NCBI GenBank assembly: GCA_011033025.1
Contig: WFMF01000003.1
Location: 1,705,483-1,769,482 of the forward strand
DNA from: Beroe forskalii
Taxonomy: Eukaryota; Ctenophora; Nuda; Beroida; Beroidae
Direction: 5' to 3'
DNA length: 64,000 nt
Position numbers and translations under genes: made by a program. Position 1 is the first letter of the stretch. Every line of letters starts with the position of its first letter. Positions 13,761-51,400 of the stretch are shown piece by piece. The notes under the pieces are model-generated. The model saw only the letters and a list, made by a program, of their open reading frames with translations, did no database searches and had not been told where the DNA came from.

Positions 13761-13762
13761 CA

Positions 13763-16031: not shown

Positions 16032-19000
16032 ATGATGTTTGCATTGGTGGTTCTCTCACTGCTTGGTTACCATGGTAACAGTGCACCACCGCACCGTAAC
16101 CAAGAAAACGATATACATGCTTATTGCGACATGAAGCTAAATAACGTTGGAGAATATTTAGGTGGGTCTGATAATGAGACACTGAGTTTAAAACCACCCC
16201 TTCTTACATCGGTAATGGTTTATGGTATCATTTAACTCGAGCTGGATTAATTGATGATTATTAGTCAGTGACTTTAGACTAAGGTTATTTGGAACTCTGG
16301 AGTTAGATAGGTCCAGGGACTGTAATCTCCTTCTTTCAATGGGGTTTACTGATTTCTCTGACATCTTGTTATGGCAGGTCCCGTGTATTTGTTCTCTGAC
16401 ATCTTGTTATGGGGATTCCGTGTATTTGTTCTCTGACATCTTGTAAAAGCGATCAAAGTGGGAAAACACGGCTTCCACATCCATGAGAATGCAGTATCTG
16501 GACGTAAGATTTAGAAACAAATAAAGTACAAACTGGCTTTTTATTTCCATTGTAGAATTGCAGTATCTGGACGTAAGATTTAAGAAAGAAAATATAAATC
16601 ATAAACTTTCCCCAAGCATTACTTTGTTCCCCTAGAATTGCTGAGACTCCACTAGATCCAAATTATTTGTAAATGTATCTGTCCCTACAGTGGACTGTTC
16701 CACGGCTGGAGGACACTACAACCCCACCAACATGACCCACGGGAGCGTCTTTGGAAAGGACGGGGATTTAAATAACCGACACACCGGGGACTTGGGAAAC
16801 GTGATGGCTGGCGACGGTGGGAACCTTTCTTTAAATTAAACAAACTTCAAGAGATTATTTAATGTTACCAGTAAATTTAAATTATACAAACTTCAAGAGA
16901 TTATTTAATGTTACTTGTAAATTTAAATTATACAAACTTCAAGAGATTATTTAATGTTACCAGTAAATTTAAATTATACAAACTTCAAGAGATTATTTAA
17001 TGTTACTTGTAAATTTGATGCTACTAAGAATATAATAAGAGATTATTTACTATTGATAAGGAAACTTTCAAGAGTTTCCGAATTGACCAGTGGAAACACA
17101 TTTTATAATGGTCTTGAAATCAGACCATAATTTCATGGACTGAATCAACCTGTTCTTTGTCATTGCGCTTTTAATCAAATAGAAATGTGCATAACCAGAC
17201 GGCATTCTGATATCAGTTCGATAAGTTGATAGCCTGTTCAGACATTGATATCCTCTATTGTATCAAGAGAGGTCGAGGGGTTTTCTAAGATTGGTAACCC
17301 TCAGAAACGATCTACATGGAGGTTCACTTTGACACGGGCAAGAATTGGCCAGCCCCCTTCACAATTTACGGAGAAAACTCCGTTATTGGACGCTCAGTCG
17401 TGCTTCACGCGGGGGAGGACGACCTCGGAGTCGGAAACCATTCAGGTAAATAGTTTCACTGTAATAACCGGGGCAACCATTCAGGTAAATAGTTTCACTG
17501 TAATCACCGTGGCAACCATTCAGGTTAATAGTTTCACTGTAATCACCGTGGCAATAGTTTCACTGTAACCGGGGCAACCATTCAGGTAAATAGTTTCACT
17601 GTAATCACCGTGGCAACCATTCAGGTAAATAGTTTCACTGTAATCACCGTGGCAACCATTCAGGTAAATAGTTTCACTGTAATCACCGTGACAACCATTC
17701 AGGTAAATAGTTTCACTGTAATCACTCGGGCAAGCATTAGGTAAATAGTTTCACTGTAATCACCGGGGCAACCATTCAGGTAAATAGTTTCACTGTAATC
17801 ACCGTGGCAACCATTCAGGTAAATAGTTTCACTGTAATCACCGTGGCAACCATTCAGGTAAGTAGTTTCACTGTTATGACCGTGGCAACCATTCAGGTAA
17901 ATAGTTTCACTGTAATCACCGTGGCAAATACTTGATAGGGTCCCCTGTTAGTGATAGGGACCTCTGTTTACTTGATAGGGTCCCCTGTTAGTGATAGGGA
18001 CCTCTGTTAACTTGATAGGGTCCCCTGTTAGTGATAGGGTCCTAAGTTAACTTGATAGGGTCCCCTGTTTGTGATAGGGACCTCTGTTAACTTGATAGGG
18101 TCCCCTGTTAGTGGTAGGGACCTCTGTTTACTTGATAGGGTCCCCTGTTAGTGATAGGGGCCTCTGTTAGTGATAGGGACCTCTGTTAACTTGATAGGGT
18201 CCCCTGTTAGTGATAGGGACCTCTGTTAACTTGATAGGGTCCCCTGTTAGTGATAGGGTCATATGTTAACTTGATAGGGTCCCCTGTTAGTGATAGGGAC
18301 CTCTGTTAACTTGATAGGGTCCCCTGTTAGTGATAGGGACCTCTGTTAACTTGATAGGGTCCCCTGTTAGTGATAGGGTCCTCTGTTAACTTGATAGGGT
18401 CCCCTGTTAGTGATAGGGACCTCTGTTAACTTGATAGGGTCCCCTGTTAGTGATAGGGACCTCTGTTTACTTGATAGGGTCCCCTGTTAGTGATAGGGAC
18501 CTCTGTTAACTTGATAGGGTCCCCTGTTAGTGATAGGGTCCTATGTTAACTTGATAGGGTCCCCTGTTAGTGATAGGGACCTCTGTTAACTTGATAGGGT
18601 CCCCTGTTAGTGATAGGGACCTCTGTTAACTTGATAGGGTCCCCTGTTAGTGATAGGGACCTCTGTTAACTTGATAGGGTCCCCTGTTAGTGATAGGGTC
18701 CTATGTTAACTTGATAGGGTCCCCTGTTAGTGATAGGGACCTCTGTTAACTTGATAGGGTCCCCTGTTAGTGATAGGGACCTCTGTTTAATTGATAGGGT
18801 CCCCTGTTAGTGATAGGGACCTCTGTTTAACTTGATAGGGTCCCCTGTTAGTGATAGGGACCTCTGTTAACTTGATAGGGTCCCCTGTTAGTGATAGGGA
18901 CCTCTGTTAACTTGATAGGGTCCTCTGTTAGTGATAGGGACCTCTGTTTACTTGATAGGGTCCCCTGTTAGTGATAGGGACCTCTGTTTACTTGATAGGG

Positions 19001-20238
19001 TCCCCTGTTAGTGATAGGGACCTCTGTTTACTTGATAGGGTCCCCTGTTAGTGATAGGGACCTCTGTTTACTTGATAGGGTCCCCTGTTAGTGATAGGGA
19101 CCTCTGTTAACTTGATAGGGTCCCCTGTTAGTGATAGGGACCTCTGTTTACTTGATAGGGTCCCCTGTTAGTGATAGGGACCTCTGTTTAACTTGATAGG
19201 GTCCCCTGTTAGTGATAGGGACCTCTGTTTACTTGATCGGGTCCCCTGTTAGTGATAGGGACCTCTGTTTACTTGATAGGGTCCCCTGTTAGTGATAGGG
19301 ACCTCTGTTTACTTGATAGGGTCCCCTGTTAGTGATAGGGACCTCTGTTAGTGATAGGGTCCTATGTTAACTTGATAGGGTCCCCTGTTAGTGATAGGGA
19401 CCTCTGTTAACTTGATAGGGTCCCCTGTTAGTGATAGGGACCTCTGTTAACTTGATAGGGTCCCCTGTTAGTGATAGGTCCTCTTAACTTGATAGGGTCC
19501 CCTGTCAGTGATAGGGACCTCTGTTAACTTGATAGGGTCCCCTGTTAGTGATAGGGACCTCTGTTAACTTGATAGGGTCCCCTGTTAGTGATAGGGACCT
19601 CTGTTTACTTGATAGGGTCCCCTGTTAGTGATAGGGACCTCTGTTTACTTGATAGGGTCCCCTGTTAGTGATAGGGACCTCTGTTTACTTGATAGGTCCC
19701 CTGTTAGTGATAGGGACCTCTGTTTGACTTGATAGGTCCCTGTTGGTGATGGGGTCCTATGTTAACTTGATAGGGTCCCCTGTAAGTGATAGGGACCTCT
19801 GTTAATTTGATAGGGTCCCCTGTTAGTGATAGGGACCTCTGTTTACTTGATAGGGTCCCCTGTTAGTGATAGGGACCTCTGTTATCTCTATAGGGTCCCT
19901 TGTTAGTAATAGGGGCCTTTGTTTTGAGATAGGTCCCCCTGTTAGTGATAGGGTCCTATGTTAACTTGATAGGGTCCCCTGTTAGTTATAGGGTCCTATG
20001 TTAACTTGATAGGGTCCCCTGTTAGTGATAGGGTCCTATGTTAACTTGATAGGGTCCCCTGTCAGTGATAGGGACCTCTGTTAACTTTATAGGGTCCCAT
20101 GTGAGTGATAGGGACCTCTGTTAACTTGATAGGGTCCCCTGTTCCAGGTTCTGATGATTCGGGCACCATACCGTTAAATCAGAACATCGGTGAGATTCCC
20201 TGGAACGGAGCTTCGTTGCTGCTCCCGAGGCCGTAGTC
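16032..20238 (+). CDS. Extracellular-type Cu/Zn superoxide dismutase, six exons, C terminus unresolved
   Basis: Exons: 16032-16161, 16311-16343, 16450-16503, 16691-16816, 17305-17445 and 20148-about 20238; each junction is phase 1. Exon 1 encodes a signal peptide (MMFALVVLSLLG) and the mature start. Exon 2 gives PGTVISFFQ, a typical SOD strand. Exon 3 has GKHGFHIHE (two Cu-ligand His). Exon 4 has CSTAGGHYNPTNMTHG and RHTGDLGN (bridging and Zn-ligand His and Asp, and the disulfide Cys). Exon 5 has IGRSVVLHAGEDDLG (final Cu-ligand His). All seven metal ligands are present. SOD dismutates superoxide to O2 and H2O2. Missing are about 12 residues before GKHG and the usual C-terminal GNAG.R.AC segment, with its active-site Arg and second disulfide Cys. 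Exon 6 instead reads SDDSGTIPLNQNIGE and stops at TAG, so the true end may be in another exon or altered. Confidence 0.8.
16354..16449 (+). repeat. Triplicated acceptor region before SOD exon 3
   Basis: TTCTCTGACATCTTGT starts at 16354, 16392 and 16429, a unit of 37-38 bp. The third copy runs directly into the AG acceptor of exon 3. The first copy carries its own CAG (TTATGGCAG), a potential alternative acceptor. Confidence 0.8.
16485..16590 (+). repeat. Duplicated donor of SOD exon 3
   Basis: GCAGTATCTGGACGTAAGAT, the exon 3 end with its donor, occurs at 16491 and again at 16560, a 69-bp offset. The second copy lies in the intron and is preceded by its own TAG. One junction has therefore been copied. 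Confidence 0.85.
16842..17038 (+). repeat. 46-bp tandem repeat in SOD intron 4
   Basis: Four copies of an AT-rich 46-bp unit containing CTTCAAGAGATTATTTAATG. They alternate between ACCAGT and ACTTGT variants, so the evolving block may be 92 bp. The array starts just after the exon 4 donor but does not contain it. Confidence 0.85.
17432..17930 (+). repeat. 39-bp array that repeats the SOD exon 5 donor
   Basis: About a dozen copies of a 39-bp unit built on ACCATTCAGGTAAATAGTTT. The first copy is the real exon end (CATTCAG at 17445) with its GTAAAT donor; later copies lie in the intron. Most keep AG|GTAA. Extending the exon by one unit reads GGT AAA TAG, so use of a later donor would stop translation at once. 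Confidence 0.9.
17931..20147 (+). repeat. 40-bp array filling the rest of SOD intron 5 up to the acceptor
   Basis: About 55 copies of a 40-bp unit, including GTCCCCTGTTAGTGATAGGG and ACCTCTGTTAACTTGATAGG. Some copies are truncated or differ in register. The final copy becomes GGGTCCCCTGTTCCAG, which is the acceptor of exon 6. With the preceding 39-bp array, nearly all of the 2.7-kb intron is tandem repeat. The same unit reappears at 30.4-35.4 kb. Confidence 0.95.
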
Positions 20239-21170
20239 TGTAGATTAGCTTGCTAATACTACAGCGATGGTGCGTTAAGACTAAGAAACAAGTAGGCTGC
20301 CAACTTTCTTATGCTCTTGTAGTATAAGATCGCGTGCAACCTAACAGACTAGCGCTGTATCAGCCATTAGTCTTTCTCTTACAGTCAGTTCTTTGTGCTT
20401 TTTAGCCGGATGAGAACTAAAAAATCCTCCAGATCTACCAGTGAGGTCCCAGTCTCTTAAAGCTTTCAGCTGTTGTGTACTTTCTCTTAAAAAATGCAAA
20501 CTGATCCATAAACCCCCAGGAGATCAGGAACTGTCTCGAACGTTAACCGTGTATAGAGACAGTTCACCGGCCCTTCTTCCCGAGGAGGAAAAAGGACCGG
20601 TAGCAATACCAGGATGACAATTTTTCAACCAAATCATACAAAGTAACTAAACAACAAAAGACGACGATAATCAAGTTTAATCAAGAAAATAATGGAAGGA
20701 GAGCAGGAGGTCCTGACATTTCGATAATCACCACTCAAAATGAAATCCGTACCACTTTTTAAATACACTTATGTTACCGAAGGCAACCCAGCTCACGCCT
20801 TCAAAACTACACTTACCTTTTATGACTTTTGACCGACCCATGGCAATGTGGACAGAGAGCAAATCTATTTTCACGCTTTGGACAACTACACTTGCCTTTA
20901 ACTGTAGTGTTTGCAAAAGGCGGCCATGGCCTAACACCCGGACCCCATTGCTCAGTGAAGTTCACCAAGCCAATGTCACTGGAAATGCTGTTCAATATAG
21001 CCAGAGCACCCAGTGGTACCAGTGGCAACTTGTGCAGTAGCAGTGGTGTCCTGTGGCCCCCTAACACCTGACCCCTGGTTGCTCAGTGAGTTTCCCCTGT
21101 TAATGGTCATGAAATAAACAGTCCCCTGCCCAACAGAGCTCTGTTAGTAGGGTCCCACCTCTGTTAGAAA
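20239..21170. other. Sequence between SOD exon 6 and the decayed array
   Basis: No convincing gene. 20230-20400 has short partly inverted segments (TAGATTAGCTTGCTAATACT; a repeated GTAGTATAAG-like region) that could be a small element. 20540-20600 has an inverted CCGG..GGACCGG segment. 20770-21110 is open for short distances on both strands, without a recognisable domain. Confidence 0.35.
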
Positions 21171-22980
21171 CTTTGCCAAGGGTCCCCTGTTAGTGATAGG
21201 GACCTCTGTTTACTTGATAGGTCCCCTGTTAGTGATAGGACCCTTGTTTGATAGTCCCCTGGGAACCTAGGACCTCTGTTTACTTGATAGGGTCCCCTGT
21301 TAGCGATGGGGTCCTATGTTAACTTGATAGGGTCCCCTGTTAGTGATAGGGACCTCTGTTAATTTGATAGGGTCCCCTGTTAGTGATAGGGACCTCTGTT
21401 AACTTGATAGGGTCCCCTGTTAGTGATAGGTCCTATGTTAACTTGATAGGTCCCCTGTTAGTCGATAGGGTCCTATGTTAACTTGACAGGGTCCCCTGTT
21501 AGTGAAAGGACCTCACAACTCTGATAGATCCCCTGTTAGTGATAGACCTCTGTTTACTCTGGACAGTCCCCAAGTTAAGATAGAACTCTGTTTATTTTGG
21601 GATAGGTCCCTGCTAGTATAGACCTCTGCCAATCCTTGGACAGTCCCCTCAGCGATAGAATCCCTCAGCAACTTTGGACAGGGTCCCCGTTAAAGTATTG
21701 GAAAATCCTCGTTAACCCTGACAGTCCCCAGCCAGTGATAGGGTCCTAAGTGTTTTACTTGACAGTCCCCCTGTCAAAGCATAGACCTCTGCCAACTCTG
21801 ACAGTCCCTGTTAAAGTATGCACCTCTGCCAACTGAGGTCCCCTGCCAAAGCATAGACCCTGCCTACTCTGACAGCCCCCTGCCAGCAGTAACCTCTGCC
21901 TGCTCGACAGTCCCTCAAGTTAAAGTATGCACCTCTGCCAACTTGACAGGGTCCTGCCAAAGTGACAGTCCCATGTTAATGACAGTCCCCGTTAAAGTAT
22001 GGTCCTATACAATCCTGACAGGGTCCCCCAAAGTGATAGACCCTGCCAAATCCTTTACAGGTCCCATGGCGACAGTAACTCTGTTGACAGGGTCCCCAAG
22101 CCAAAGTATAAAAATCCTGCCTACTTGATAGGCCCCTCGTCAGTGACAGGACCCTGCCTACTTGACAGTCCCCTGAGCCACCCAGCAGCCCCCTGCTTTT
22201 CATTGACAGCCCCCGGGGGAAAAAGACCCCCAAAAAACTTGAAGTCCCCCGCGATGGTCCTAAAGGCCCTGACAGGGTCCCCTGAGATAACCCCGAACTT
22301 AAAGGGGTCCCCAAAGACCCTGCCCCTGACAGGCCCCTGAAAGGAACCCCAAACCCCCTGAATCCAGTGCCCCTGCCACCCTAAAAAGCCCCTGCAAAAA
22401 ATTAGACCTGAACCCCCGGGGAAAGGGCCCTGAAGAAGCCCCGTTAACCCTTGAAACCGGCCCCTTTTAGGAGCCTCCAATTTAAAGGGGCCCCCCGAAA
22501 GAAGGGACCCTTTTTATTTGAAGTCCCCGTTAAATATAACCCTTTACTGAACCCCCGTTAGGAAGGACCTCTGAATTTGGGAATCCCCTTTTAAAAGTAT
22601 TTCCTTTGAATTTGACGGGGCCCCCCCAAGAACCTGCCACTTAAAGTCCCCTGCAGTAAGCCCCTTGAAAAATTGACCCCCCCTTATATAGGCCTTTGAA
22701 CTTAAAGCCCCCTGAAAAGGAAAATTTCTTTAGCCCCCCCGGGACAGCCCCGTTTTGAACCCCCTGGCTACCCCCCAACCAACCCCAGTAAGCCCAGAAA
22801 CTTGATAGCCCCTGAAATGGCCCTTTTAAACTGAAGTCCCCAAAGATAAAACCTGCCCCCCTGACACCCCCTTGCAAAAACCTTGTTTGAAGCCCTTTTG
22901 GGATGGACCCTTCTTTTTGACGGGGTCCCCGAAAGATAGACCTCTGTTACTGACAGTCCCCGGGAGAAAAAATTTTTCAT
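21170..22980 (+). repeat. Decayed 40-bp array grading into noisy sequence
   Basis: Begins with clear 40-bp units (CCCCTGTTAGTGATAGGGAC) to about 21500, then becomes increasingly irregular. From about 22000 it is dominated by fragments such as GACAGTCCCC and by C, A and T homopolymer runs. This may be real decay of the array, but the homopolymer pattern also fits unpolished long-read consensus in a collapsed repeat. Confidence 0.7.
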
Positions 22981-24240: not shown

Positions 24241-24276
24241 TGTCAGCGTATTTTTCTCAAATGTAGAATTTTTCTA

Positions 24277-24950: not shown

Positions 24951-24975
24951 CCAGCGTTAAGTTTCTGTGATCCGA

Positions 24976-25177: not shown

Positions 25178-25188
25178 CTTACTTACAG

Positions 25189-33400: not shown

Positions 33401-36400
33401 TTAAATTGATAGTGTCCCCTGTTAGTGATAGGGTCCTCTGTTAACTTGATAGTGTCCCCTGTTAGCGATAGGGTCCTCTGTTAACTTGATAGTGTCCCCT
33501 GTTAGTGATAGGGTCCTCTGTTAACTTGATAGTGTCCCCTGTTAGTGATAGGGTCCTCTGTTAACTTGATAGTGTCCCCTGTTAGTGATAGGGTCCTCTG
33601 TTAACTTGATAGTGTCCCCTGTTAGTGATAGGGTCCTCTGTTAACTTGATAGTGTCCCCTGTTAGTGATAGGGTCCTCTGTTAACTTGATAGTGTCCCCC
33701 GTTAGTGATAGGGTCTCTGTTAACTTGATAGTGTCCCCTGTTAGTGATAGGGTCCTCTGTTAACTTGATAGTGTCCCCTGTTAGTGATAGGGTCCTCTGT
33801 TAACTTGATAGTGTCCCCTGTTAGTGATAGGGTCCTCTGTTAACTTGATAGTGTCCCCTGTTAGTGATAGGGTCCTCTGTTAACTTGATAGTGTCCCCTG
33901 TTAGTGATAGGGTCCTCTGTTAACTTGATAGTGTCCCCTGTTAGTGATAGGGTCCTCTGTTAACTTGATAGTGTCCCCTGTTAGTGATAGGGTCCTCTGT
34001 TAACTTGATAGTGTCCCCTGTTAGTGATAGGGTCCTCTGTTAACTTGATAGTGTCCCCTGTTAGTGATAGGGTCCTCTGTTAACTTGATAGTGTCCCCTG
34101 TTAGTGATAGGGTCCTCTGTTAACTTGATAGTGTCCCCTGTTAGTGATAGGGTCCTCTGTTAACTTGATAGTGTCCCCTGTTAGTGATAGGGTCTCTGTT
34201 AACTTGATAGTGTCCCCTGTTAGTGATAGGTCCTCTGTTAACTTGATAGTGTCCCCTGTTAGTGATAGGGTCCTCTGTTAACTTGATAGTGTCCCCTGTT
34301 AGTGATAGGGTCCTCTGTTAACTTGATAGTGTCCCCTGTTAGTGATAGGGTCCTCTGTTAACTTGATAGTGTCCCCTGTTAGTGATAGGGTCCTCTGTTA
34401 ACTTGATAGTGTCCCCTGTTAGTGATAGGGTCCTCTGTTAACTTGATAGTGTCCCCTGTTAGTGATAGGGTCCTCTGTTACTTTGATAGTGTCCCCTGTT
34501 AGTGATAGGTTCCTCTGACTCCTCTGTTAACTTGATAGTGTCCCCTGTTAGTGTAGGGATCCTCTGTTAACTTGATAGTGTCCCCTGTTAGTGATAGGGT
34601 CCTCTGTTAACTTGATAGTGTCCCCTGTTAGTGATAGGGTCCTCTGTTAACTTGATAGTGTCCCCTGTTAGTGATAGGGTCCTCTGTTAACTTGATAGTG
34701 TCCCCTGTTAGTGATAGGGTCCTCTGTTAACTTGATAGTGTCCCCTGTTAGTGATAGGTCCTCTGTTAACTTGATAGTGTCCCCTGTTAGTGATAGGGTC
34801 CTCTGTTAACTTGATAGTGTCCCCTGTTAGTGATAGGGTCCTCTGTTAACTTGATAGTGTCCCCTGTTAGTGATAGGGTCCTCTGTTAACTTGATAGTGT
34901 CCCCTGTTAGTGATAGGGTCCTCTGTTAACTTGATAGTGTCCCCTGTTAGTGATAGGGTCCTCTGTTAACTTGATAGTGTCCCCTGTTAGTGATAGGGTC
35001 CTCTGTTAACTTGATAGTGTCCCCTGTTAGTGATAGGGACCCCCTGTTAGTGATAGGGTCCTAACTTGATAGTGTCCCCTGTTAGTGATAGGGTCCTCTG
35101 TTAACTTGATAGGGTCCCCTGTTAGTGATACGGTCCTCTGTTAACTTGATAGTGTCCCCTGTTAGTGATAGGGTCCTCTGTTAACTTGATAGGGTCCCCT
35201 GTTAGTGATAGGGTCCTCTGTTAACTTGATAGTGTCCCCTGTTACTGATAGGGTCCTCTGTTAACTTGATAGTGTTAACTTGATAGTGTCCCCTGTTAGT
35301 GATAGGGTCCTCTGTTAACTTGATAGTGTCCCCTGTTAGTGATAGGGTCCTCTGTTAACTTGATAGTGTCCCCTGTTAGTGATAGGGTCCTCTGTTAACT
35401 TGATATGTCCCCTGTTTGACCCCCTACTGAACCCCTCCTGATCCCCTACTGATCCCCTACTGATCCCCTACTGATCCCCTACTGATCCCCTGCTGACCCT
35501 TGCTGACCTCCTACTGAACCCCTCCTGATCCCCTACTGACCCCCTACTGAACACCTACTGACCCCCTCCTGATCCCTTGCTGACCCCCTACTGAACCCCT
35601 CCTGATCCCTTGCTGACCCCCTACTGAACCCCTCCTGATCCCCTACTGATCCCCTACTGACCCCCTACTGACCCCCTACTGAACCCCTCTTGATCCCCTA
35701 CTGATCCCCTACTGACCCCTTGCCGACCCCGTACTGACCCCCTCCTGATCCCCTACCTCCTGATCCCCTACTGACCCCCTCCTGATCCCCTACTGACCCC
35801 CTCCTGACCCCCTACTGAACCTCTCCTGATCCCTTGCTGAACACCTACTGACCCCCTGCTGACCCCTACTGACCCCCTCCTGATCCCCTACCTACTTACC
35901 CCCTCCTGATCCCCTGCTGATCCCCTACTGACCCCCTACTGACCCCCTGCTGACCCCCTGCTGACCCCTACTGATCCCCTGCTGACCCCCTGCTGATCCC
36001 CTACTGACCAGTGTCCCCCTGTAGCAGGACTGAACGGGTCCCTCAACAACGAATCCATTGGTGATGAAGTGAGGAGGCTCAGGTTTGAGAACCTCATTCT
36101 CCAAAGTAAAGTCGACACCTTGGAGGCGGAGAATAAATCTCTCAAAGAGGTTGATTTTATTGATCATTTAATTCAATGAAGAACAAGAATTGGTTATTCA
36201 CAATTATGGTATTTAGTTATTTACCAAATTTCGTAATTTGGTAAAGCCACTAATAATTAGTGACTTCTATTCGGATAGTATACCATTGCTCCTTTTTTAA
36301 ATAATTTACGATTTTTTACTCAGCAGCTCACTATAATAATTCCAATGCACACCATGTAGTAGCATTTAAAACTCCTCTCATCCAGCCAATACACAGCGTC

Positions 36401-39400
36401 AGCACCAGCAATAAGCAGTACAAGCAATGATATGTATATCTCTCACTGCACACCAATCCTCATCATGCGAAACTCTGGCATTTCGAGCCCTCTGATCGCC
36501 ACTAAATGTCGCAAATGAGAATAGGTCAGCTGACTTCATCAACTTAACGTGTTCAAGCAGGAAGATGACGTCACTCTCAAAGTGTCTGTGATTCGAGCGC
36601 GACCAGAATTTCGTATAGCAAGCAATTAAGTTAAGCGTGTTTGAGTAGCTGTTGGTGGGTGGTTCGTTCAAAAAGAGAAAGAAGAGAGATGGTGATACAG
36701 TGTGTGATGATCAGTTGCACGTCAATAGAATGCTACAATTGATAGGAAACTGTGATCACTGAAAAGATGGAATTTCAGATAGCGACAATCGTTGGGAGAA
36801 GTTAATTAATTGTTTGAGGGAAGAGATGTAATTTTTTTCATTTCAAGAGTTTGCGATAAGTAATACCTCAACAACCTTTACTGTTTTTAATATCAGTTGC
36901 TGCTAGATTTCTCTCAATAGCGTAGAATCCAGCAATGTTACTCAAGAGGTATATATGCGAGCTGGCGTAATCCCAATATCCCGCAATGATAGATTAGTTG
37001 TTCAGTTTGCCTTGTTCGGATATTTACAAGAATCAGAGCCCCCGCAACCAGAAATACAGTAGATTTCCTGGTCACGTGACCAGGTCCTGATCACGTGATA
37101 CCCACCAGTTTCCTAGTTGCCCCACGGTTGCCATGACAACCAACTACCCTCCGCGAGGAGTCCCTAATTAACGCATTGTCATCGAACTAGGTCCCCCATT
37201 AGGTGTACAAAGCTGAGAGTATGCGATGGAGATGATGGCATCGTGAGGGCTGAGAGTGGTGGGTTGATGAGGTTTAACAGTCCATGTGTCGTATGGAACA
37301 ATCCTAGGGCAGAGTAATTTCCTTTCTTCAGATATCACCCATTGTCTCCGAACCCAGAAATATTATCTCTAGTATAATGGGGCCATTAGAAGCCTGAGAT
37401 TGGTTTGAACTCATTGCAAGAGAAGTCTGCTGCCTCCTCAATTCACCTCTCTAACCTATGATGATGACGTCACTCAGTGAGTATAATGTGAGCAGGAGCT
37501 TTCACCCGGAAATGGGTGTTTTGCTGCCCCACTCTGACTTGCGTAACCATGGTAACCTACACGGAATATGCCATTTGATTGTAGGAATGCCTGGTAAGGA
37601 ATGCCATCATTTCTATTGCTTAAGATGCACTATTGACGACACCAATAGAATATTCAGGATAAACTTGTAATTGTGTATACGGAAAGAGTTAGTGTAATTA
37701 AAGGGACATGGCAGTGTTTAGGATAGGTTGGAATGTAGTCGGTGCATTGGATGAAACATTTAAGATTTAGAAGGTTCCACTTAAGACTCTGACTCTGACC
37801 AGTCACTGGTTCTCTCCATGGTCGCTTGTCCCTTAAATCCCAGGGTACAAGGGATGGGATTGGGCTCAGCTTTGGGGGCAGGATTCTTCCTTCATTTCAA
37901 GAGGAAAGGATTGGCCTTGCAATTGAGGGGGCAGGGTTCGTTTTGCATTTCAACATCAAATGCAAAGGATTGGGGGATAGCTCATGGTTTTATCAGTCAT
38001 ATTGTCCCTACTTTCCTAGATGTATGCAGAACATGAGAACAGGCCCAAACTTCAAAATGAAAAGCTGAAATGTAGCGGCTGACCAATGATTGGAGCCACA
38101 TGATCTAGCTGTAAACCTTCCAGTGTATCTAATGAGAACTAATGCAAATCTAATGAAAACTCCTTCCTCATTGTTCGAATGCTGGAGTTGCGAGTTTATA
38201 TACCAACAAATTCCAATTTATTTGTCAGGATGAACTATTTGAATGCACTCTGAATAAGTGTTGGTATTTTGTTTGGGGGGGGTTGGGTTTATTTTTTTTG
38301 GGACAAAAAATTTAAAGGGGGGGGGAAAATTTTTTTAAGGGGTTCCCAAAAAGGGCAGGGCAGGAAAAAAAAAAAGGGGGGTTTTAAAAAATTTTTAAAA
38401 ATTTTTTTTTTTAAAAAAGGGGGGGTTTTTAAATAAAGAAAAATTTTTTTTGAACTTTTTTTGGAAAAAAAAAATTTTAAATTTTTTTAAAATTTTTTTC
38501 CCCTTTTGGGGTTTTTTTAAAACAAAAAACCCCAAATTTTTATCAAATTATTTTTTTTTAAAATTTTTTTGGCAAATTTTTTAATTTTAAAACAGTTTTT
38601 TTTAAATTTTAACCCTTTTAACGAAAAATTAAAAAGGTGTAATTTTTTTTGGTTTCCAATTTACCCTTTTTTAATTTTTTAAATTAAATTGTTTTAAATT
38701 TTTTCAAATTCCGTTTTTTTCCCTTGTTTTAAATTTAGTGAATTTTTATTTAAATTTGGTACTCTTTGTTTTTTAAAAACCGTTCATTCAAAAAACCCTT
38801 TTTAATAAAAAAATTTTTTCTTTTTAGCCCCAAAGGTTTAAAAAACTAAACGAAAAATTTATTCCCCCCGGGCTAAGCTCATTTAAAAATTTTAAATCGG
38901 GAAATAAACCCCAAATTAAAATCCCGTGAACCCAAAATAAAACCCCCGGGATAAAACCCAAATCCCCTTTTAACCTCCAGGAAAATTCCCCCCGGTAAAA
39001 AACCCCCCTTAAAAAATTTGCCCCGGGAAACCCAAGGCCACCCATAAAAACAAAAAAAAATTTTTTCCCCAAAAAATTTTTGCTAAACTGACTTTCCCTC
39101 AACTGAATTTTGAAAAAAAAAAATTTTTTGGGGAAATAAAAGCCCCAAAAAAAAAATTCCAAAGGGGCTAAATTAAAAATGGTTTCATTAAAAAATTTTT
39201 AAATCTTTCAAAATTCTTTATTTTTTTAAATTTTATATCCGGGGAAAAATAAAAATTTAAATTTTTTGAAACCATAACCATCTGTTAGTCTACGAGATCT
39301 GATCTACACTGTTATTGTAATCTAGTGATTTATCTACATAGTGTGGAATTTTATACTTCCAGTCATCAAAGACTCAATCTCTATTCCAGATAAATAGCTG

Positions 39401-42400
39401 CTAAACCGATCACTCTATTTCAGATAGCAGCTAAACCAATCACTCTATTTCAGATAGCAGCTAAACCAATCACTCTATTTCAGATAGCAGCTAAACCGAT
39501 CTCTCTATTTCAGATAGCAGCTAAACCGATCACTCTATTTCAGATAGCAGCTAAACCGATCTCTCTATTTCAGATAACTGCTAAACCGAGTCCGGTTACC
39601 TCGACTGATAACCGGATATTATCCCGGCAAATCACGCAGCTGACTCAGGACCTTAACACTGCAACCAGACAGATAGACAAGCTCAAGAAGGACAACGACG
39701 ACCTTACCTCCCAGGTGAAATATACCTCCCAGGTGAAATATACCTCCCAGGTGAAATATACCTCCCAGGTGAATACCTGAATGTACTATGCAGGCAAATA
39801 ACTACATTGCAAAATCGCCGATCGGCTCCGGTCAGCACCGATCGGCCCCGCGTCGGCGATTTTGCAATTTAGTCATTCGCCGGTACCTCTACCGACTGAG
39901 CCAACTTTCTTAGCTCAATAGCTGACTATTTTGACATCGAAAAAAATAAAGATCTTGATAAGTTGAAACTGTCAACATCACAAAGGTTTTTATCTCGACA
40001 GGAAGATGGAGCCACCAGGCCGTTACCTTGAATTGCTAAATCCTAAAAGTGTGGTCGCTTCATTAAAACAGAAGATTCAATATTAGAATTTTCCAGTTTC
40101 CTATCTGCTAGCTTCAGTCTATCTATTGCCGGCCCTGTGTATGTAATGTATAATCTGTCCTGTATAACTATGTGCTGTATTTCACAGTGGCTGTTTCCCG
40201 CGCGTTTGAAACTCAATCAGAGATGTGCGTTGTAACTCTATCACCCTCATACATCCAGGGTGACAGTGTCACCACTGTAGAGTGTGATGATGTCATCAAC
40301 TCACCACTTTAAAGTGTGATGATGTCATCAACTCACCACTTTAAAGTGTGATGATGTCATCAACTCACCACTTTAAAGTGTGACGATGACTTCATCTCTA
40401 CACTGATAATATAGGTTTATGTGACGTAGTAATGATACGTCACAGTAGCATGTCACCCACATGGTCCTGAAAGAAGGAGACTGCACGTGCTATGAAGCTC
40501 CTGGAGGAACGTCAAAAGGAAAATTAGGAGTAATAGGTGAACAAAAGAATCGTGCACATGTGTTCTGCGCGCTATCATCCTATATCAGAATCAGTAAGAA
40601 CCTCATAATACTTTTATGAGATTATGCTTGATTATGCTATGTCAGAATCATTAATAACCTCATAATATCACTTTCTTACTTTTTACCTCGTCGAGCTTCC
40701 GTTCACCGACAGATTGAAGTCCGACAGCCTTAATGCTCGACCTTGTCGAACTTCCAGCCAATTTTTGCTCTTTTTGATACCACATTACTCTAATTGAAAT
40801 CAATTACCTCATCCGACCACTTAAGTCTTGACACCACTTCACTCTTGACACCACTTCTAGATACTCTGACGCTACTTAACTTGAAGTAATTCTTATTGAT
40901 ACTAAAACAGAAATTGTCCTGAAATTCACCTTCTTTAGAGTTAAATCAATCAATAAAACACGAATCAATAGCTCGAAAAAGTGTGTAATGGCTTAATGGC
41001 ATGATAAAGCGTCACATTCCTGAAGAAAACGGTTCATCACGTGGACCCACTGTTCATTGCCAACCTCCTCCCTTGTATTGTACCATAGTGTATATCTACT
41101 CGTATAATACTACCACACAGTGCTTGTAGTGGGTCCGATTATAAACAGGTCATATTCCATATTCATATTATAGTATTTAATACCTACTTATCGTTAACTA
41201 CCTTCAACGTTTGCCTTTCTGTTTACTGTTATGAAGTGAGTATGCCCACTTGTGGTCGCATGTCAAAACTCTAACATGTAAAATGCTTTCCATCTTTTTC
41301 CAAATCACATCGCTCTGGTGATATCCCTCATTCCGGTTGTAGTTGTGCATTATTAATTACAGTTGAGACTAATGAAAACCAGGAAAAAGCTGAATCAACT
41401 CAAATTCACTTCATTCGGCTTCACTTGGGTTGATTCGCCTTGAATCTTGATTTGGACCGATTCGTCTTGCTTTGTGTTGATTTGTGTTGATTCGCCTTGA
41501 TTCGGAGTAGATTTGCTACATTTCATTGAAATGCCGACTAACCCCCTTACTCCCACCAAGGATGGCAGGGTTGAATATTTTCGGTGCTTTGGTGAATGCC
41601 GGTGCTACATTCGCACTTTTCCTCACCGTCTGTATCTACGGAAATATCGACCTCATTCCGTCTTTCGGCCACGGCTCCTTCCCGATTACCAACCTGATCG
41701 CGTTCTTCTTCGCAGGGGGCGCCACCCTTCTGTCAATAGCAGTGGTTCTCATTGACGCTGGAAAACTGGAGGGTCTGCGATCGATGAAAAAATTGTTGAG
41801 AATTGGGATATGTTTCGGTATTCTATTGGGTGGATTTCTCACTCTTCTTTCTTGTATTGATTGGATCATCTTAATTGTTGAATGGTTAAATGGTTTTAAC
41901 TTAGGTCCGAGATTCAATGCTATATTTGCATTTGATATTTTGGCTGGGCTCGGCTTGGCTTTGGGCTTATTAATTCAATTCGCCCTTTTGGAAAAGATGG
42001 GGAGGAGCAACCAGAAGCTTAGCTAATGTCTTACTACGTGATAGAACACCAGGGATTATGTCTACAAGTGATAGAACACCAGGAATTATGTAGAGGCTAC
42101 ATCGAACAATCATCGGACTTGCTCAACGCCCTACATAAACTGCTGTACAACAAACCTTTATAAATCATACTTTATAAATCATACTTTATCTGTTCATATT
42201 ATTGAAGAAAAATAATTCAGTGAAAGAGTTAGTTATATAACAGTTATATAGTTAAACTAAAAAATTATTGTTTTAGATTCGATAAGAAGTTTTTGGTTCA
42301 AATGGTGCCAAATATCACACAAGCTGGTGAAATCCATGATTTATACTTTTTCTTTAATTAGGTGCTTAAAATTTAAGAAAACTCGTATCAACTGTTTCCT

Positions 42401-45400
42401 CTAAAGAACTATACCGATGTTTCTTTCCGATGTGCGTGCGTTTGAATACCACATGTTGCGTGAAAGTGCAATTGAAAATACCGCCCACGTCCGTGGTCGA
42501 GTGCATGTTGCACTACATGTTGTGTACAAAATAGTGGTGCTGCTTGCGGGAAATAGGCGCTGTGACGTCGACAACTGCCCACGTTGAGCTATGATGATGA
42601 CGTCATCGGCACTACGCTTTATTCGCTATGTAAGTATGTGTATGTGTGATGGTGTTCGTATGTAACGAGTGTTTTATAGTAAGGCTCGGTGATGAATTGT
42701 AACGGTCAAAAGAAGGAGTATGTTTAGTTATTTCAATTATTTAGCATTCTAAAAAAGTAATTAATTTGATTAAAATGATTCATAATTCATGTCTCGATTA
42801 AGTCAATGAACCATGAATGCAGTGAAAACGGCTGTAGGTACTATGTATATTTTTGGTGCCAATCTTTCCATCCGAAGTTTTCAATAATGCTAATATGAAT
42901 CCTGTTTTGCGTAATACAAATCGGACAATGCTTTGAGCTATTTCAATCGATGAATCAGATATGTTTAAACCAGTAATTGCTGTGCGTGCCAACTGTTAAC
43001 ATGCTACTTATAGCTTTTTACATGATTACCTAAACTTGATGAAACACTTATTTGTTGGCTTTATCCAGTTATCCAGTTATTCGTCATTCGCTGGATCTAT
43101 GTTTAAAATAATCAATAGAGTGTGCATTGTTCTTCGTATTACTGTTTTACAGTATTAAGTTGATGAGCCTGATTAAGATTGTTAGGCAGCTTTTATTTTC
43201 GATTTTGTGCTATGAGAAACAACTGTGAGTAGGTATCTTATTGGTATACTTCATTCTCCCTTTTATCGTCTGATTCACTATTTCATGTTCATACCACTTC
43301 ACCCTGCAACTTATGCCCTAATGGCCCCCGAAACCATTTCATTTCGACTCTTTTTTCTTGGTTTCTTAGTAGCTTGCTCAAGAATCAAGAATGACGTAAG
43401 TTGAAGGCTTGCATTGTCCCAAACTCAAGAAAAGTGAATCGGGACAAATAGGACATCTGGGACAGAGAAAATAAGACAAATGGGACTCAAAAAGTGAATT
43501 GGGACAGGGACTTTGAGATATTTGGGACAAAAGTGACAAAGAAAAATGGGGCAAATGGACAGTTATGACAGCGACACTCCCCCTAATTAGTTTATGTACC
43601 TAGAAAAGAGGTAATGTTCTGCACTGCATCGTTCTTTAATTCTCAGCTATGTTCTGGTGACCTGGTGGTGAATTGCAAGTCTGTAGTATTCGTTATCGGT
43701 TAAAGTCCCCAGAGGATTTGAGTGTTTCTGATCTAATTGATATCTTGTTACAAGTGTGCAAAATTCAAATTTTTGCAAACTTAGCTGAGCGCGCGGCGAC
43801 ATTTTCTTGACCAAAATTAGAAATCATCCCTGTACATAAACGCCGCGCAATATATTTGCGCGCGCAGAAGTTAGTAGAATCTGTTCAAATTTGCTTGAAA
43901 ATGTTCCCCTTTTTGAGTCCTATTTAGATGCTTGTTAGGTACGCATAGTTTCTAGTGTTTTATAACCCCAATGTTCGCAGCTCTACTCTCTGAAAGTGGA
44001 CCGGTTGGAGAAGCCCAAGCGACCGGAGGATCTACAGAAAGATGGGCGAGAAGACTGGACTGGATGCCAAGCTGACGCTATCGAACATCTCTGTTCAGAG
44101 GTATGAGTTATGCAGGACAAATGCACACGCCTGGTTTGTTATTAACGCCAGGGAACTAAAATTTGAAAAGTTAAGACGCTAACAGACTTCGGCACTCCAT
44201 AATATGTCCCTCAATTACAGAACCACAGATGGGGATACGGCATTTCAAGACCTAACCTTAACCTGGCCCTAACCTTAACCCAGCCCTGACCCCAACCTTT
44301 GCTCGGAGTTGGAATATTACGAGATGAAATGCCGTGAAATGTCCTGAGATCAAATGTCCGTTCTCTAAAAGACGTACCACGAAAAACTATTCGACTTTAC
44401 CCTCTTCAGAACCAGAGACTCCGTGAGACAATATTCGACATGAATGAGCAGAAACTTCACGTCCATAAGCTGTTGGAAGCTGACCAGGGCGCCCAGGGCA
44501 AACAACCCACTCGCAAGAGACTAGATAGTTGTCAGCTCGAGAACGAGCAGTTGTCAGAGGAAAAGAAACGACTCCTGGCGAGACTGGTGGGTTTTCTCTC
44601 ATTCTCGTATTCCAGTGGCGATTCTTGTCTCACTTAGAGTGCACTGGCAGTTCCAAAACTAAAATATTTGAGAGGCTCTTCCATTATCATCTCACGGTAT
44701 GTCCCCCACCCAGGCTACTGAGACAGAAGAAGCAAAGAAAGCGAATGAGCGGTACAGCAAAATGAAGGAGGATTACACCAACGCACTATCACAGGTTATA
44801 GAATTCTAACGATTTGAAACGTTATGTGAGATTCCACAAAGTGAGAGACTACTTACAAAGAATTGAAATGTTCCATTGCATCATCAGAATTCTAAAATTT
44901 GAGTGCCAGTGTCTAAACGTAACGCAGTGAATCTATCGAAGTCGAGAAAAGGCGTCTTTTGAATCCTAAATATCATGCTGCGATTATTGAAAAAAGTAAA
45001 TAAGAGTGTGCTGTGTCTGACTTCCTGTCTTTTTATTTCAGATTTCTAGCTTGCAGTCTCAACTTATCAAATATGAACAGGAAGGCTCCAACAAAATCGG
45101 GATGGAGAACAACACCATACGGAGTAAGATTCTAGCACATTGATCACAATGAAAATATCAAAGTAGCACCCACCATTTTACCAGGAGAAAAAGTCATAAT
45201 GTTGTTGGAAGATACCAGGGTGTTATGAGATATACTGATATGGTATTATAAGTTCTCTGTCATCCCCCAGATCTGTCTGAGAAGTGCACGGAGCTACAGG
45301 AAAGCATGCAGGCGCGGGAGCAGGAGTTTGAGAAGCAACTCAAAGACAAAGACCAGGAGCTCCAAGACCAAGTGGACTTCCACGTCAAGAAGGTACACTG

Positions 45401-48400
45401 AAAGATGAATGCGTTGTTTGCCTCCTTGTTTCGTGCGTCTGTTTGTTCCCAGTGTGTCTGACTGCACTATTTTCTCATAGCGCCGTAACTCTGCTCCTTG
45501 CCCCAGCTACAAGACATAGAGCGTGAAGTAAAACGAGTCAGCAATGTCTGTGACTTGCTTTGTCAAGAGAAGGATAACGCCATCAATACCCTTCAGAAAC
45601 AGATTGATACAAATGCTATTCTCTCAAAGTGAGTCCCTCTAATCGTTTTCGAGTCTGGCCGATTTTTAAAGACTTATTGATACATTTAAAGTGGTTGATT
45701 TTGTGTACATATTTTGGCTGTAATGCGCGCGCGTCAAGGAATTTGCTGTACGCATGTTTGATGAGTTACCTTCAGAGCGCGCAGCTACCAAAAACAATAA
45801 AATCGCGCGCTCCAAATATCACAGTAAATTTGTGGTACCAGTGGCAAATCTAGTCGAATTATCTAAAACGTGTGCCGAGATAAGAATACTGAATATCATG
45901 AGTCTTCATTCGTTTCTTGTTATGAAATGTTTAGAGTGCTTACCCCCTGTTTCTCTTACAACGACAGTTTACTCATTCTGCGTAGTCTTTCTTGTTCTGT
46001 CGTTCGTAATATCAGTTTCTTCCCCCGTAGGTCTAACGAGCAGCTGCAAAACACAGTAACTGAGCAGTCAGACCGTATCAGAGACTTGGTTTACCGACAG
46101 ATGAGGGATACCGAGATCATTAATGAACTTAAAACCGATGTGAGTTATACAATGATAGCTTGATTGGAGAATAATAATTCCTGGATAACCCTTGTAGCGT
46201 GGAATCCGGTTAATTAACAATGTTACGAACACTCGCCTGCTGAGTCCCCATTCCTCCCTTATGTTATAGTGCTTGCTAAACTGCAGAACAGCCAATGATC
46301 GGATGGTTTGTTGAATGTTTTGCCACCTGTTGAACTCTATTGGGGATCCTCCAAGAATATTGTAAATTCAATGTTCCCTAAATAAACTGGGTCTTATTAA
46401 GACATACGCCTTTGCACTAACGTTACAAGTTTGCTCTGACTCGCGAGTTTAGATCGGTCTCGTTGTAACGAAGATGAATGAAGTTATAGTGAGTTATTTC
46501 TTATCTCCCCTTGATACTTGGATCAACCATGCTGATTTCCGATGATTTGAATCTCTAGCTTAAACTCTCTAATAATAACGATTGAAGTTTGACTGTGAAT
46601 CTCATACTAAAACTCTCTAATAATAACGATTACAGTTTGACTGTGAATCTCGTACTAAAACTCTCTAATAATAACGATTACAGTTTGACTGTGAATCTCG
46701 TACTAAAACTCTCTAATAATAACGATTGTAGTTCGAGTGTGAATCTCGCGTAAAACTCTCTGATAATAACGATTGTAGTTCGAGTGTGTGTTGCGGGAAC
46801 GCAACGAGCTAGAAGACCGACTGAAACACGAGAAACAGCTGCATTTGCAACGCCTTGCAACGCTCAAAGAACAAATCCACATCGCTCGACTATCCTTCGC
46901 TAGTTTAGTGGGAATGATACAGGAGGATACGGGCATAGATAACGAGGTGATTTGATTGGTTAATCAGCATCTCAATGCGTTGTCATTGGAGTAAGACAGT
47001 ATACTACTGAACACGTGAATTTGAATTGTTACTTTGTTAATTTGTTACTTGACAGTCTGAGAATTTGGTTAACTGTATTTCATCACTGAAGTGAACACTG
47101 AATATATATTTTGATCTCACATGGTATTTAATCTCTTATCAATCACAAATGTAATCTCTTATCTAATCTATTAAACCTCATCTCATCTCCAGAAACAAAC
47201 ATTAAACCTCTCATCTCAAATGTAATCTCTTATCTAATCTCCTATCTAACCTCATCTCCTTCCCAGAAACGGGAGGAGCTTCTGAGACAGTTAGCGGAGA
47301 TAGACGCGCAGTTGGGGGCGCTGCAGCGCGAGATTCTGGATATAGAGAGGATGGAGGCTGAGAATACAAGGGTGGAACTGGACGATATCACTATACAAGT
47401 TAGTGTACATACTGTACTAATGTATAGTGTACTATTGTGACATAATGAATACTGTACATATTGTACACTGCACTATACAAGTTAGTGTACTCTGTACATA
47501 TTGTACACTGCACTATACAAGTTAGTGAACTCTGTACATATTGTACACTGTACGGTATAAGACGTGAATGGTTGACTTTCACACACTTATTTCTGTGTTA
47601 TCCTTGCAACCCACCTTTTTCCTTCTTCCAGTTTTTGAAAAAGTCAGAGCAGTGTGAAGCCTTGCAGACCCAACTAAGTGCTATCGAACTGGACAAGTCT
47701 CGTCTCAGCAAGTAAACTCGAGTCCTTTTCACTCATATTTCTTATTGTTTTATTTCGAAATGCAGTTATTTGAAGCGATAGAGCTTTGAAATGGGGTAAT
47801 AAAGTACGTGCTATTAATTGACTCAGGTTTGGGTCATTGATCATTGCTACTTTCCCAGGAAGCAAGGAGACCTGGAGACGTCGCTCAATGAGACGAGGAA
47901 CACTGCTGTGAACTACGAGGCAAAGTGCGACGAGCTGAGACAGGCTCTACACAAGAAACAGGTGAAAAGTCTTGATTAATTATTACTCTGGCACTGAATA
48001 ATCATGAGAAGTCTGGATATTCCCACAAACCACATGTCCAATAAGATACTCAGATTTATTCTGTTTTATTAGGCCCGCAATAATTGAAATTTCCATTGTG
48101 CAGGAAAATATCACACCACTTTTTATTTCATGGCTGAAATTTCAATATTCTCACCACATCCATTTTCAGATAGAGAATGATACATACAAGGCTCAGCTGG
48201 ACAAAGTTAAGATTAAGCTGGGTATCCTGGAAGGTGATAAGGAAACTGTGGAGGCTAAATCACGTGACCTTAAGGTAGGGAATCCTGACATCTGACACCA
48301 CACTACATACACCCCCACACATCATACATCTCTTGGCTGAAAGCTTCAAAGTAGGGAATCTACTTCTGGAAATTTGTAGTCAGAAGTTCATAGCTTATCT

Positions 48401-51400
48401 TTGAAATGCTTCAATCAAATTCAAAATATCGTGTTAATGTAACCAACTATTATTTTATTTTCGTCTATTTTTGGATGAGCGTTGTTGATTCAATTGATAA
48501 TGTTGATCACCTCTTTGTGTAAATTTGTAACTTTTAAAATTCGGATTTCTCTTTGAAATATTTTTACTTTATTGCTTCCCGATTCTGATGATCTGTGTGA
48601 GTTTGTGAGGTAGCCGACATGGCCTTGTCGGTGACTTGTACTTTTTCTTCTATGATTTTTATCAGAGCAAATAGAAACAATATTGCTACAAAGTTGAAAG
48701 TTATTATGAACTTTATTAAAGTAATCAATAATCATCATGGGAAATCATGCAATCCAACATGCTAAGATAACAACGATTTTTATTCACGAAAAATCTAAGA
48801 ATCTAGATAGCCAAAGAAAAGCTTTCATTGCTGCTACGAATATAGTTCCTTGTGGTTGTTATATAACGACGGCACCTTAGCTTACCCACCACAAGATTAA
48901 ACTTGACATTGACCATTCAGCGAGCGAGTTGGCTGTAAACGCGCTCACTGATTGGTCAATGTCTTGACGATTTTATACGATCCTATGGTATGCTAATACG
49001 CTGCCGAGTTCAGGTCTGAAACTTTACCGTGCTCCCCCGGCAGGCTAAGAATGAACAGCTATGTGACAACGCTGCCGAATTAGACGTAGGGTTGAAAGAA
49101 ACGAAGAAAAAGCTGCATCAGAGAGAAGTAAGTACAATAACAATGGTTTCTTTATTTAATCGTGTGGCAAGGAAAAAGTGATCCAGAGTATATTTTTCAC
49201 GAATTGTCAAAGATATGACTTCCGAAAAAAACATTCCCTTGTGTTTGAGAGGGTTTTTTGTGCAAAATCCACAGACCATCATTATCCCTTTCGGGGGAAA
49301 AGCCTATTGTAGTAGAGTCTCAAAACATTTCCTTGTGTTTGAAAAAGCTAATCGTAGTAGAGTCTCAAAACATTTCCTTGTTTTTGAAAAGGCTAATTGT
49401 AGTAGAGTCTCAGTTTAGACCTAAAAAAACAAAGCGATGAGTGGGAAGAAAGGTACCAGCAGTTGTCTCAGCAGGTAACCATGGAAACAGTGGAGTGTCC
49501 GTATTGTGTGTGTTTCATGTGCCACGTCATTATCTTGATTTAACATTTAAAGTGGTTAATTAGTGCTTTAAAAAGGTAAATTGAAGTAAAATGGTAACAA
49601 TCATCAAGAAAAATTAACGTTTGAGTTGCAAATAGAAGATGGAAGGTAATGTGTTTCACCATTTCCCCCATATACATTTTGAACAGCTGAAAAAATTAAA
49701 ATTGTTTCCCTTAGAACTTCTTTCTGCTTGATTTTGACAATATTCCAGTTTTCTAAGACTATGTCGGCTGCTGAGTTCTGTAACAAACGAATAAATATGT
49801 AATCCAAGCCTAGGATACTAAAACCCGTCTTTTATTATAAAATGTAAACACGTTTGCTCCAAGCACCCTTACGATAATATTTAGATGAACCTGAATGGGC
49901 TTGCACGACATTGTATTTTAATTTAGATAATTCGCTGCATGTTGCATGAACATCAATAACACGTTTTAAAAGATAAAAGCTTGTGTTTTAAAAGTTCGTT
50001 GTCGAAACCACCGCTTGGGACAATAGAATCTTAGTTCTTGCTATGAAGGAATATTTTCAGCATTTAATTGTAATTTGTTTGCTTGATCTGATATCAGAAA
50101 ACTTAACTTAAATCTTTCGTTGACAAGTACAGTAAAATCTTAAAATGCTAATTGCAACTGCGGTTGTGAGGTTAAGTAAATTAAGTGGCTATTGTGGTTG
50201 TAGCTTAAAGTTTGCGATTAATACATAGTTAAAACACACCTTCAGCTGAAAAATGTAACATTTTTTCAGAATGTGACTGTGAATCCAATCTACTTATTTC
50301 TTAATCATAGGACGATTCTTTCCATATAATTCTTCTGGATCTGAGGCATTTTACCATCCTCTCTTCACTGACGCACTAAAGTAGATATCCCAGCTATCTT
50401 CTCTTCTCCAACTAACACTAAAATAGATATCCCAGCTATCTTCTCTTCTCCAACTAACACTAAAGTAGATATCCCAGCTATCTTCTCTTCTCCAACTAAC
50501 ACTAAAATAGATATCCCAGCTATCTTCTCTTCTCCAACTAACACTAAAGTAGATATCCCAGCTATCTTCTCTTCTCCAACTAACACTAAAGTAGATATCC
50601 CAGCTATCTTCTCTTCTCCAACTAACACTAAAATAGATATCTCAGCTTCAGAAGAGTTTGTCTCGCGGAACCATCCAGATAGGTCTCCTCAATGAGGAGC
50701 TCAAGGTGGCCCTCAGCACCCTCTTCGAGCTGAACGGAAAACTGGACTCTGAGGAAGTCGAGGAAAATGTGAGTTTTATTTCTCATGGGCGCCCCTCAAA
50801 GCCACAATAAATTTCTCATGGGCGAGTGGGGCTACGCTATGGTTGTGATCAATATGATTCCTAGCATGATTCACGAGCTATTTAATACTTTCAGCTGGAA
50901 ACCCTGGAGGATATCTCACGACAGTTAAACGAACTGGAACTTGCTCTTGAGAGAACCATGGGAAACGACCCTGCCCTGCTCGACTTACCTTGTAAGAACA
51001 ATGCCGAATTCTTAAGTTTAATATTATGAAGTCAATAACCATTGGTATCTGCCAGAAGTTTCACATGGTGCTGATTTGTATACTTTGTATGATGTTTGCT
51101 TCTAGTAACCTATACAAGTAATTATGTGGTAAATTAACGTGATATCTTTTCAGTGCGAGGCACCAGTGGAGAGAAGATCTCCCAACTCCTTTCAGAGCTC
51201 GACTTCTACAAGGAAAACGCCCCCAAACCACAGGTGCGATACTGCAAATACACTTACAGTTCATTGGAAACATGAATTAATGAATTTCTATATCAATCAT
51301 GAATTAATGAGATTCTATCTCAATCATGAATTAATGAGATTCTATCTCAAATCAGAGATTCTTTGATCCGTTGCGTTAGTTTTTGCTCCATAAAACATCC

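Follow-up and report, generated by a model that had tools for sequence, protein, structure and literature searches.

The window analysed here, a stretch of 64,000 nucleotides (C358:1705483-1769482 of a 216-Mb assembly), carries a Cu/Zn superoxide dismutase (SOD) gene and a CEP290-like coiled-coil gene. At six exon borders of these genes the splice site and 7-16 exonic nucleotides (nt) beside it were part of the repeat unit of a tandem array, as determined with Tandem Repeats Finder (TRF), in the raw sequence and with protein-guided borders. The features concerned are listed below; a slash marks the splice junction throughout.

16354..16444, plus strand: 37-bp array beside the likely SOD exon-3 acceptor (TRF), with the junction outside the unit
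17325..17445, plus strand: 3' part of a Cu/Zn-SOD exon (phmmer), ending ...GNHS at donor CAG/GTAAAT
17436..17927, plus strand: SOD exon-5 donor array, 39-bp unit AACCATTCAG/GTAAATAG..., exon ending at 17445
36045..63996, plus strand: CEP290-like coiled-coil gene (gene B), stretch aligned to the Mnemiopsis ortholog, with a giant exon ending at 62831
39394..39589, plus strand: CEP290-like acceptor array, 30-bp unit ...CTATTTCAG/ATAGCAGCTAAACCGA, 16 exonic nt, exon starting at 39574
39705..39773, plus strand: CEP290-like donor array, 18-bp unit TACCTCCCAG/GTGAAATA (coding TSQ/), 10 exonic nt, exon ending at 39714
46548..46788, plus strand: CEP290-like acceptor array, 48-bp unit, 10 exonic nt, exon starting at 46779
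47190..47275, plus strand: weak diverged copy of the acceptor at 47267, about 74 nt upstream of it (by eye); junction-probe score 29, z 7.2
47389..47550, plus strand: CEP290-like donor array, 40-bp unit, CACTATACAA/GTTAGTG, 10 exonic nt, exon ending at 47398
49298..49412, plus strand: CEP290-like acceptor array, 45-bp unit, 7 exonic nt (AGTCTCA), exon starting at 49406
50374..50647, plus strand: borderline array of 42-bp units with ATATCCCAG, overlapping the exon (start at 50646) by only 2 nt

The SOD donor at 17445 is the clearest case in the window. Its 39-bp unit is made up of 10 exonic nt, the donor and 29 intronic nt, and the array contains 11 further copies (decoys), all of which have kept the GT. 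At the CEP290-like donor 39714 the Mnemiopsis protein reads ...DDLTSQLYSL across the border, without a repeat. A sequence-only reading of the window had placed ten or more exon borders inside such arrays, among them those of SOD exons 3 and 5. Six borders were confirmed (17445, 39574, 39714, 46779, 47398 and 49406), including the exon-5 donor, although the exon numbers of that reading were not matched one to one. The array at SOD exon 3 stops about 5 nt before the likely acceptor (~16450) and, like the one at 50646, does no more than adjoin the border; in the junction-probe test this SOD border was placed 2-3 nt away from the likely acceptor. The copy at 47267 is weak, and for donor 48274 a junction copy was not supported (junction-probe score 21).

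The identities of the genes were established by homology. The SOD exon matched SODs in the PDB (phmmer, residues 13-38 of a 40-aa query, E 7.7e-8). The giant exon of the CEP290-like gene matched Mnemiopsis leidyi P0122 at 66% identity and Bolinopsis P0123, which is named CEP290-like, at 67%, in both cases over 60-61% of the query; a third homolog reached 91% identity over about 60% of the query (all among the candidates scored). P0121 was rejected as transcript evidence; it resembles an open reading frame (ORF) from a genomic contig of a relative. A DNAH1-like dynein on contig C790 shared 86% identity with DNAH1 of Bolinopsis microptera across the entire 2504-aa query, whereas the other 119 matches listed (of 4628) lay at 61-67%. 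Judged by the homology of this dynein and of the giant exon, the source organism is a ctenophore, apparently distinct from both Mnemiopsis leidyi and Bolinopsis microptera.

Outside the window we analysed the dynein genes C248, C174, C790 and later C822, which were chosen because their short open frames implied introns, before any array had been seen in them. C174 (10 kb) served for training only and stands outside the border counts. The window gene and the other three dyneins together provided 94 introns with 188 borders. Exon borders were obtained by spliced alignment of proteins to the genome. The reference was an ortholog for C790 and for the CEP290-like gene, a paralog for C248, and a paralog together with a hidden Markov model (HMM) gene finder for C822. 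The gene finder was trained with masking, the aligner was run with a raised intron penalty, by which most zero-length exons inside arrays were removed, and splice matrices were trained on introns from the analysed sequences themselves. Exons below 25 nt and introns below 40 nt were excluded from the border counts, and further regions were excluded by hand: 14000-16200, 11186-11201, 17930-17960, 19240-19700 and 21220-21292 in C790, where intron 13739-15023 was added back by hand; in the window, the small exons at 51300-52200 and those introns that run from 51091 into the giant exon; and 1440-1460, 13700-13995, 17000-17800, 19900-20050 and 29600-29700 in c248rc. For C822, 19 exons were picked by hand from the aligner and HMM results with the TRF list in view, and two introns were dropped. 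Its donor at 3153 (HMM) was preferred to 3172 (aligner), and a PDB sequence match later confirmed 3153; judged by the known dynein sequence, the true position of its acceptor at 4136 may differ by some 12 bases.

Arrays were counted from TRF at a period of at least 14 and a score of at least 50, after merging, and were called border-spanning if they covered at least 3 exonic and at least 10 intronic bases. As a null, each array was placed at random inside its own intron 5000 times, with an exon overlap of up to 25 (or up to 40) nt allowed. In the four genes 21 of 56 arrays spanned a border, 13 at donors and 8 at acceptors, against 7.2 +- 2.3 expected; none of the 5000 placements reached 21. 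With overlaps of up to 40 nt the expectation was 10.1 (P=0.0002). The window gene contributed 5 arrays against 1.2 expected (P=0.0022), these lying at 5 of its 42 borders; the corresponding counts were 10 of 54 borders in C790 (3.5 expected), 5 of 32 in C822 (1.1) and 1 of 60 in C248 (1.2). Since the founding breakpoints are what matter, we used an edge test beside a test of coverage. The density of outer array edges was 0.0040 per bp within the final 25 nt of exons (19 in 4,700 bp), which is 4.5 times that found deep in introns; the first 25 intronic nt had 0.0015 per bp (7 in 4,700) and deeper introns 0.0008-0.0011. Were splice junctions in this lineage preferred start points or survivors of tandem duplication, this peak just inside the exon ends, above the intron starts in the four pooled genes, would suggest that the process is linked to the junction itself.

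The cases best backed by homology lay in the dynein genes. One dynein donor, with a protein-supported border, lies in a 73-bp unit that was duplicated once (x2) and comprises 43 exonic nt, coding ...PPIELIRQWLDHK/, together with the donor; a DNAH1 donor, GACAACCTCAAG/GT (DNLK/, within ELPDNLK/), has a 26-bp array with 12 decoys and likewise a protein-supported border. One dynein acceptor has an array with 33 decoys, in which each 25-bp unit includes exonic GTGCCTAAC (VPN). Where an exon of cytoplasmic dynein 1 (C822) ends in DAILNP/, also protein-supported, the unit holds 40 exonic nt. The largest arrays contain up to about 45 decoys. Two extra copies of the DNAH1 acceptor at L034 3329 (CTGCAG/GATCATGAACTGGGAGAGCAAG, about 22 exonic nt) lie 126 and 653 nt upstream, at 3203-3224 and 2676-2697, embedded in an array of the CCCCCTCAGTA type, a case in which a second, higher-order array can spread border copies.

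For the anatomy of the border arrays we took together the 21 border-spanning arrays, the SOD array and the borderline array at 50646. In these 23, unit length had a median of 39 bp (range 18-166) and exonic overlap a median of 10 nt. The ratio of overlap to unit length was skewed low (Kolmogorov-Smirnov P=0.012, with one overlap, that of C790 acceptor 8357, set by hand to 22 where the TRF edge gives 4). Microhomology past the TRF edge was 0-1 nt, a value that says little because TRF counts any such homology as part of the array. Wherever it was compared with proteins of relatives, the outermost copy agreed with their exon edge. The search for decoys used the complete unit with its exonic bases, and the founding duplication therefore most likely ran across the junction.

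Introns carrying a border array were longer than the others: the median was 424 nt in the former (n=19) and 209 nt in the latter (n=75; P=7e-5). With the array removed, the same 19 introns had a median of 178 nt, so the arrays suffice to explain the extra length. The local process that the sequence-only reading had proposed, copying borders into introns, is supported by the pooled excess and by affected introns being longer by about the length of the array. Such a process might run as follows. A short local DNA duplication, typically with a unit of 25-50 bp, would start or end a few bases inside the exon and so copy the junction and its exonic bases. The copied unit would then multiply head to tail inside the intron, perhaps by slippage or unequal recombination. 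The outermost splice site would stay in use in the RNA, and the inner copies would be removed as intron sequence, so that the intron lengthens and the protein is unchanged. The preference for exon ends could reflect a bias of breakpoints or a better survival of junction-spanning duplications, either of which would suffice. On the borders obtained from protein alignment, the arrays are probably border minisatellites of the kind called mirages in amphioxus. It is possible, and we propose it tentatively, that splice junctions in this lineage are preferred start points or survivors of tandem duplication, and that in some genomic regions introns lengthen chiefly through duplication of their borders.

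We next consider the explanation that survives best beside this one, namely that these are ordinary intronic minisatellites of a repeat-rich genome whose overlap with borders arose by chance and is tolerated since the outermost site works. We regard it as unlikely. In the three dyneins, which were not picked for arrays, 16 of 43 arrays spanned a border against 5.9 expected from random placement (0 of 5000 placements), and the density of outer edges was 0.0036 per bp over the final 25 nt of exons but 0.0016 per bp over the initial 25 nt of introns, with 13 edges in exon ends against 3.5 expected (P=8e-5). A number of results nevertheless speak for chance and against a process tied to junctions. 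The dynein excess was smaller when overlaps of up to 40 nt were allowed (16 against 8.5, P=0.0032). Junctions were copied about as often as intron interiors: in introns of at least 200 nt another copy was found for 31 of 122 junctions and for 27 of 122 points 60 nt inside the same introns. In the coverage test (78 introns), border-centred windows with another copy numbered 9 of 78 at donors and 7 of 78 at acceptors, not above the coverage of intron interiors (about 13-35%, depending on offset). C248 showed no excess, with 1 spanning array against 1.2 expected. In 200 kb of C358, a stretch taken regardless of arrays, 1 of 86 borders was spanned by an array and 3 of 86 had a copy by the junction probe, the borders being predicted by HMM and possibly imprecise; array edges there peaked within the initial 25 nt of introns (6 in 2,150 bp), with 1 in 2,150 in exon ends. 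A test free of gene models, comparing strong splice motifs inside the outer edge with those in the far half of the first unit, gave no enrichment in C358, where 72 edges of each type yielded 2 against 2 at donors and 5 against 4 at acceptors.

The gene-model-free test gave donors 4 against 4 and acceptors 2 against 0 in the window (60 edges), 8 against 4 and 3 against 1 in C790 (48 edges), 0 against 0 and 1 against 0 in C248 (16 edges), and none in C174 (2 edges). Over all, 32 of 190 borders had another copy of their 30-base junction in the adjoining 600 intron bases: 16 of 54 in C790, 7 of 44 in the window (two SOD borders included), 7 of 32 in C822 and 2 of 60 in C248. Border arrays were commonest where arrays are dense overall (24 arrays in 13.7 kb of intron in C790, 12 in 16.8 kb in C248), as chance would also predict. 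The absence of an excess in C248 and in the C358 stretch indicates that the phenomenon varies in strength: pronounced in certain genes or regions, it is faint elsewhere, broadly in line with local array density. The earlier claim that arrays coincide with exon borders above chance thus holds for the pooled genes, with no excess in C248 or in the C358 stretch. A genome-wide habit of border arrays, which had also been suggested, is not established. For one 3-kb DNAH1 stretch no second haplotype was seen when 40 of 910 candidates were scored, nearly all of them taken up by a dispersed repeat. The same 40 candidates contained no dispersed match to the border arrays, as would be looked for in introner elements, which form introns in many genes (simple repeats and very common words skipped).

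Selection for redundant splice sites, which would keep or favour the arrays, had been offered by the sequence-only reading as well. It would account for the canonical GT or AG being kept in 136 of 141 decoys (12 arrays; 2 of 14 had too few copies) and for a splice core slightly better conserved than the other columns of the unit (P=0.027 for the core and P=0.013 for the dinucleotide). This excess conservation is suggestive at best. The test is a weak one, and the ends of units may be aligned less well than their middle parts. Sites in use beside an array were not significantly weaker than the rest: donors scored 5.63 with an array and 4.77 without (P=0.12), acceptors 3.97 and 5.26 (P=0.20). 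Unit length was a multiple of 3 in only 9 of the 23 border arrays, so that splicing at an inner copy would mostly disrupt the reading frame. With the evidence mixed and weak in this way, we think such selection improbable.

Another explanation starts from intron gain by tandem duplication of AG/GT exon sequence (the Rogers model), or from exon borders that shifted into a pre-existing array. Many donor units do contain AG/GT, for example CTCAAG/GTACGG and CATTCAG/GTAAAT. No array, however, spanned both borders of one intron (0 of 56 in the four genes), and two DNAH1 introns with arrays at both ends have differing units there (38 and 47 bp; 34 and 25 bp), so that existing introns appear to grow. 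The exon edges DNLK/, QWLDHK/ and GDFM/ at three DNAH1 arrays align with Bolinopsis residues, and the coding ends therefore appear older than the arrays. We consider this explanation very improbable. Intron gain by this route is neither needed nor supported, and the earlier suggestion that the process creates new introns is not supported either. An artefact of assembly or gene models deserves still less credence: the borders are protein-guided rather than RNA-based, the references for C248 and C822 are paralogous and there is one assembly, but the copies differ by substitutions, the pattern recurs in genes on different contigs, and PDB sequences agree with the C822 exon right up to its last residue and with the SOD exon until two residues before it ends.

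Several other features were observed in the window and in the dynein genes. A further 39-bp array at 29936-30195 has the unit ...GGGCCAAG/GTAAATAAC, with an HMM exon end in the first unit (29960), and a similar minisatellite of about 40 bp, TTGATAGGGTCCCCTGTTA..., is present in 55, 7 and 126 copies at 17933-20143, 21273-21545 and 30415-35416. A 154-aa hydrophobic ORF without Pfam match (41561-42026, plus strand) lies in the same-strand 4266-nt intron 39715-43980 of the CEP290-like gene and may be a nested intronic gene, a class reported as frequent in Hormiphora in the available part of its genome paper (PMC8527503). On the minus strand, 10271-12877 contains a papain-family protease ORF with six ShK and two ephrin-receptor-like matches. 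Among the dynein heavy chains, some occupy very long open frames (C1024:1419525, 3715 aa; C534:86665, 3010 aa) and others are split into short exons. A 188-bp element in a DNAH1 intron (L034 ~5867-6054) has at least 39 other genome copies at 84-95% identity and is probably a small transposon.

In the human gene IFI6 (6-16/G1P3) a minisatellite offers many splice donors at an exon end and the extra donors are reportedly used; a single gene is concerned there, in contrast to many borders in the ctenophore. Amphioxus mirages are the subject of a PMC-listed paper reportedly by Ebner et al. (2010). According to the available excerpts, they occur in Adh3 and the globin genes BflGb6 and BflGb9 (PMC3087553), to which TnC and PGBD5 were added (PMC3902484). 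Their units range from 10-72 bp (Adh3) to 150-160 bp (globins) and many contain AG/GT (PMC3087553, PMC3902484); regular splicing was reported from reverse transcription PCR (PMC3087553). Multi-copy junction arrays are thus not a new kind of structure. The ctenophore arrays resemble mirages in being minisatellite-type duplications across the intron-exon boundary (21 of 56 arrays and the SOD donor), in affecting both the 5' and the 3' borders of introns, and in having units of 18-166 bp, which fit the roughly 10-160 bp of amphioxus. They differ in belonging to another phylum, in occurring several times per gene (10 of 54 borders in DNAH1), and in the edge bias and intron-length difference measured for them.

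Related processes are known from other genomes. In the excerpts consulted, internal repeats of human segmental duplications likewise lie at exon-intron boundaries and change exon and intron lengths; those repeats are found in recent paralogs and can form novel introns, whereas in the ctenophore existing introns appear extended (PMC2812944). Intron gain by tandem genomic duplication, the subject of PMC4974935, also ties duplication to intron borders, but no counted ctenophore array covers a whole intron. The Hormiphora genome is reported to be 13% tandem repeat, and border arrays are not mentioned in the part of the paper at hand (PMC8527503). In the open-licence literature we found no paper on minisatellites in ctenophore genomes, and no genome-wide survey of border arrays beyond the human segmental-duplication study, itself available in part (PMC2812944). 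Border arrays offer a concrete route for the lengthening of introns, and the link between splice junctions and tandem-duplication breakpoints is testable with existing ctenophore genomes and transcripts. The ctenophore arrays are probably the amphioxus mirage phenomenon in a new phylum. Within the excerpts available, mirages have hitherto been described from amphioxus; the ctenophore case, with a junction copy at 16 of the 54 borders of one gene, suggests a wider animal phenomenon.

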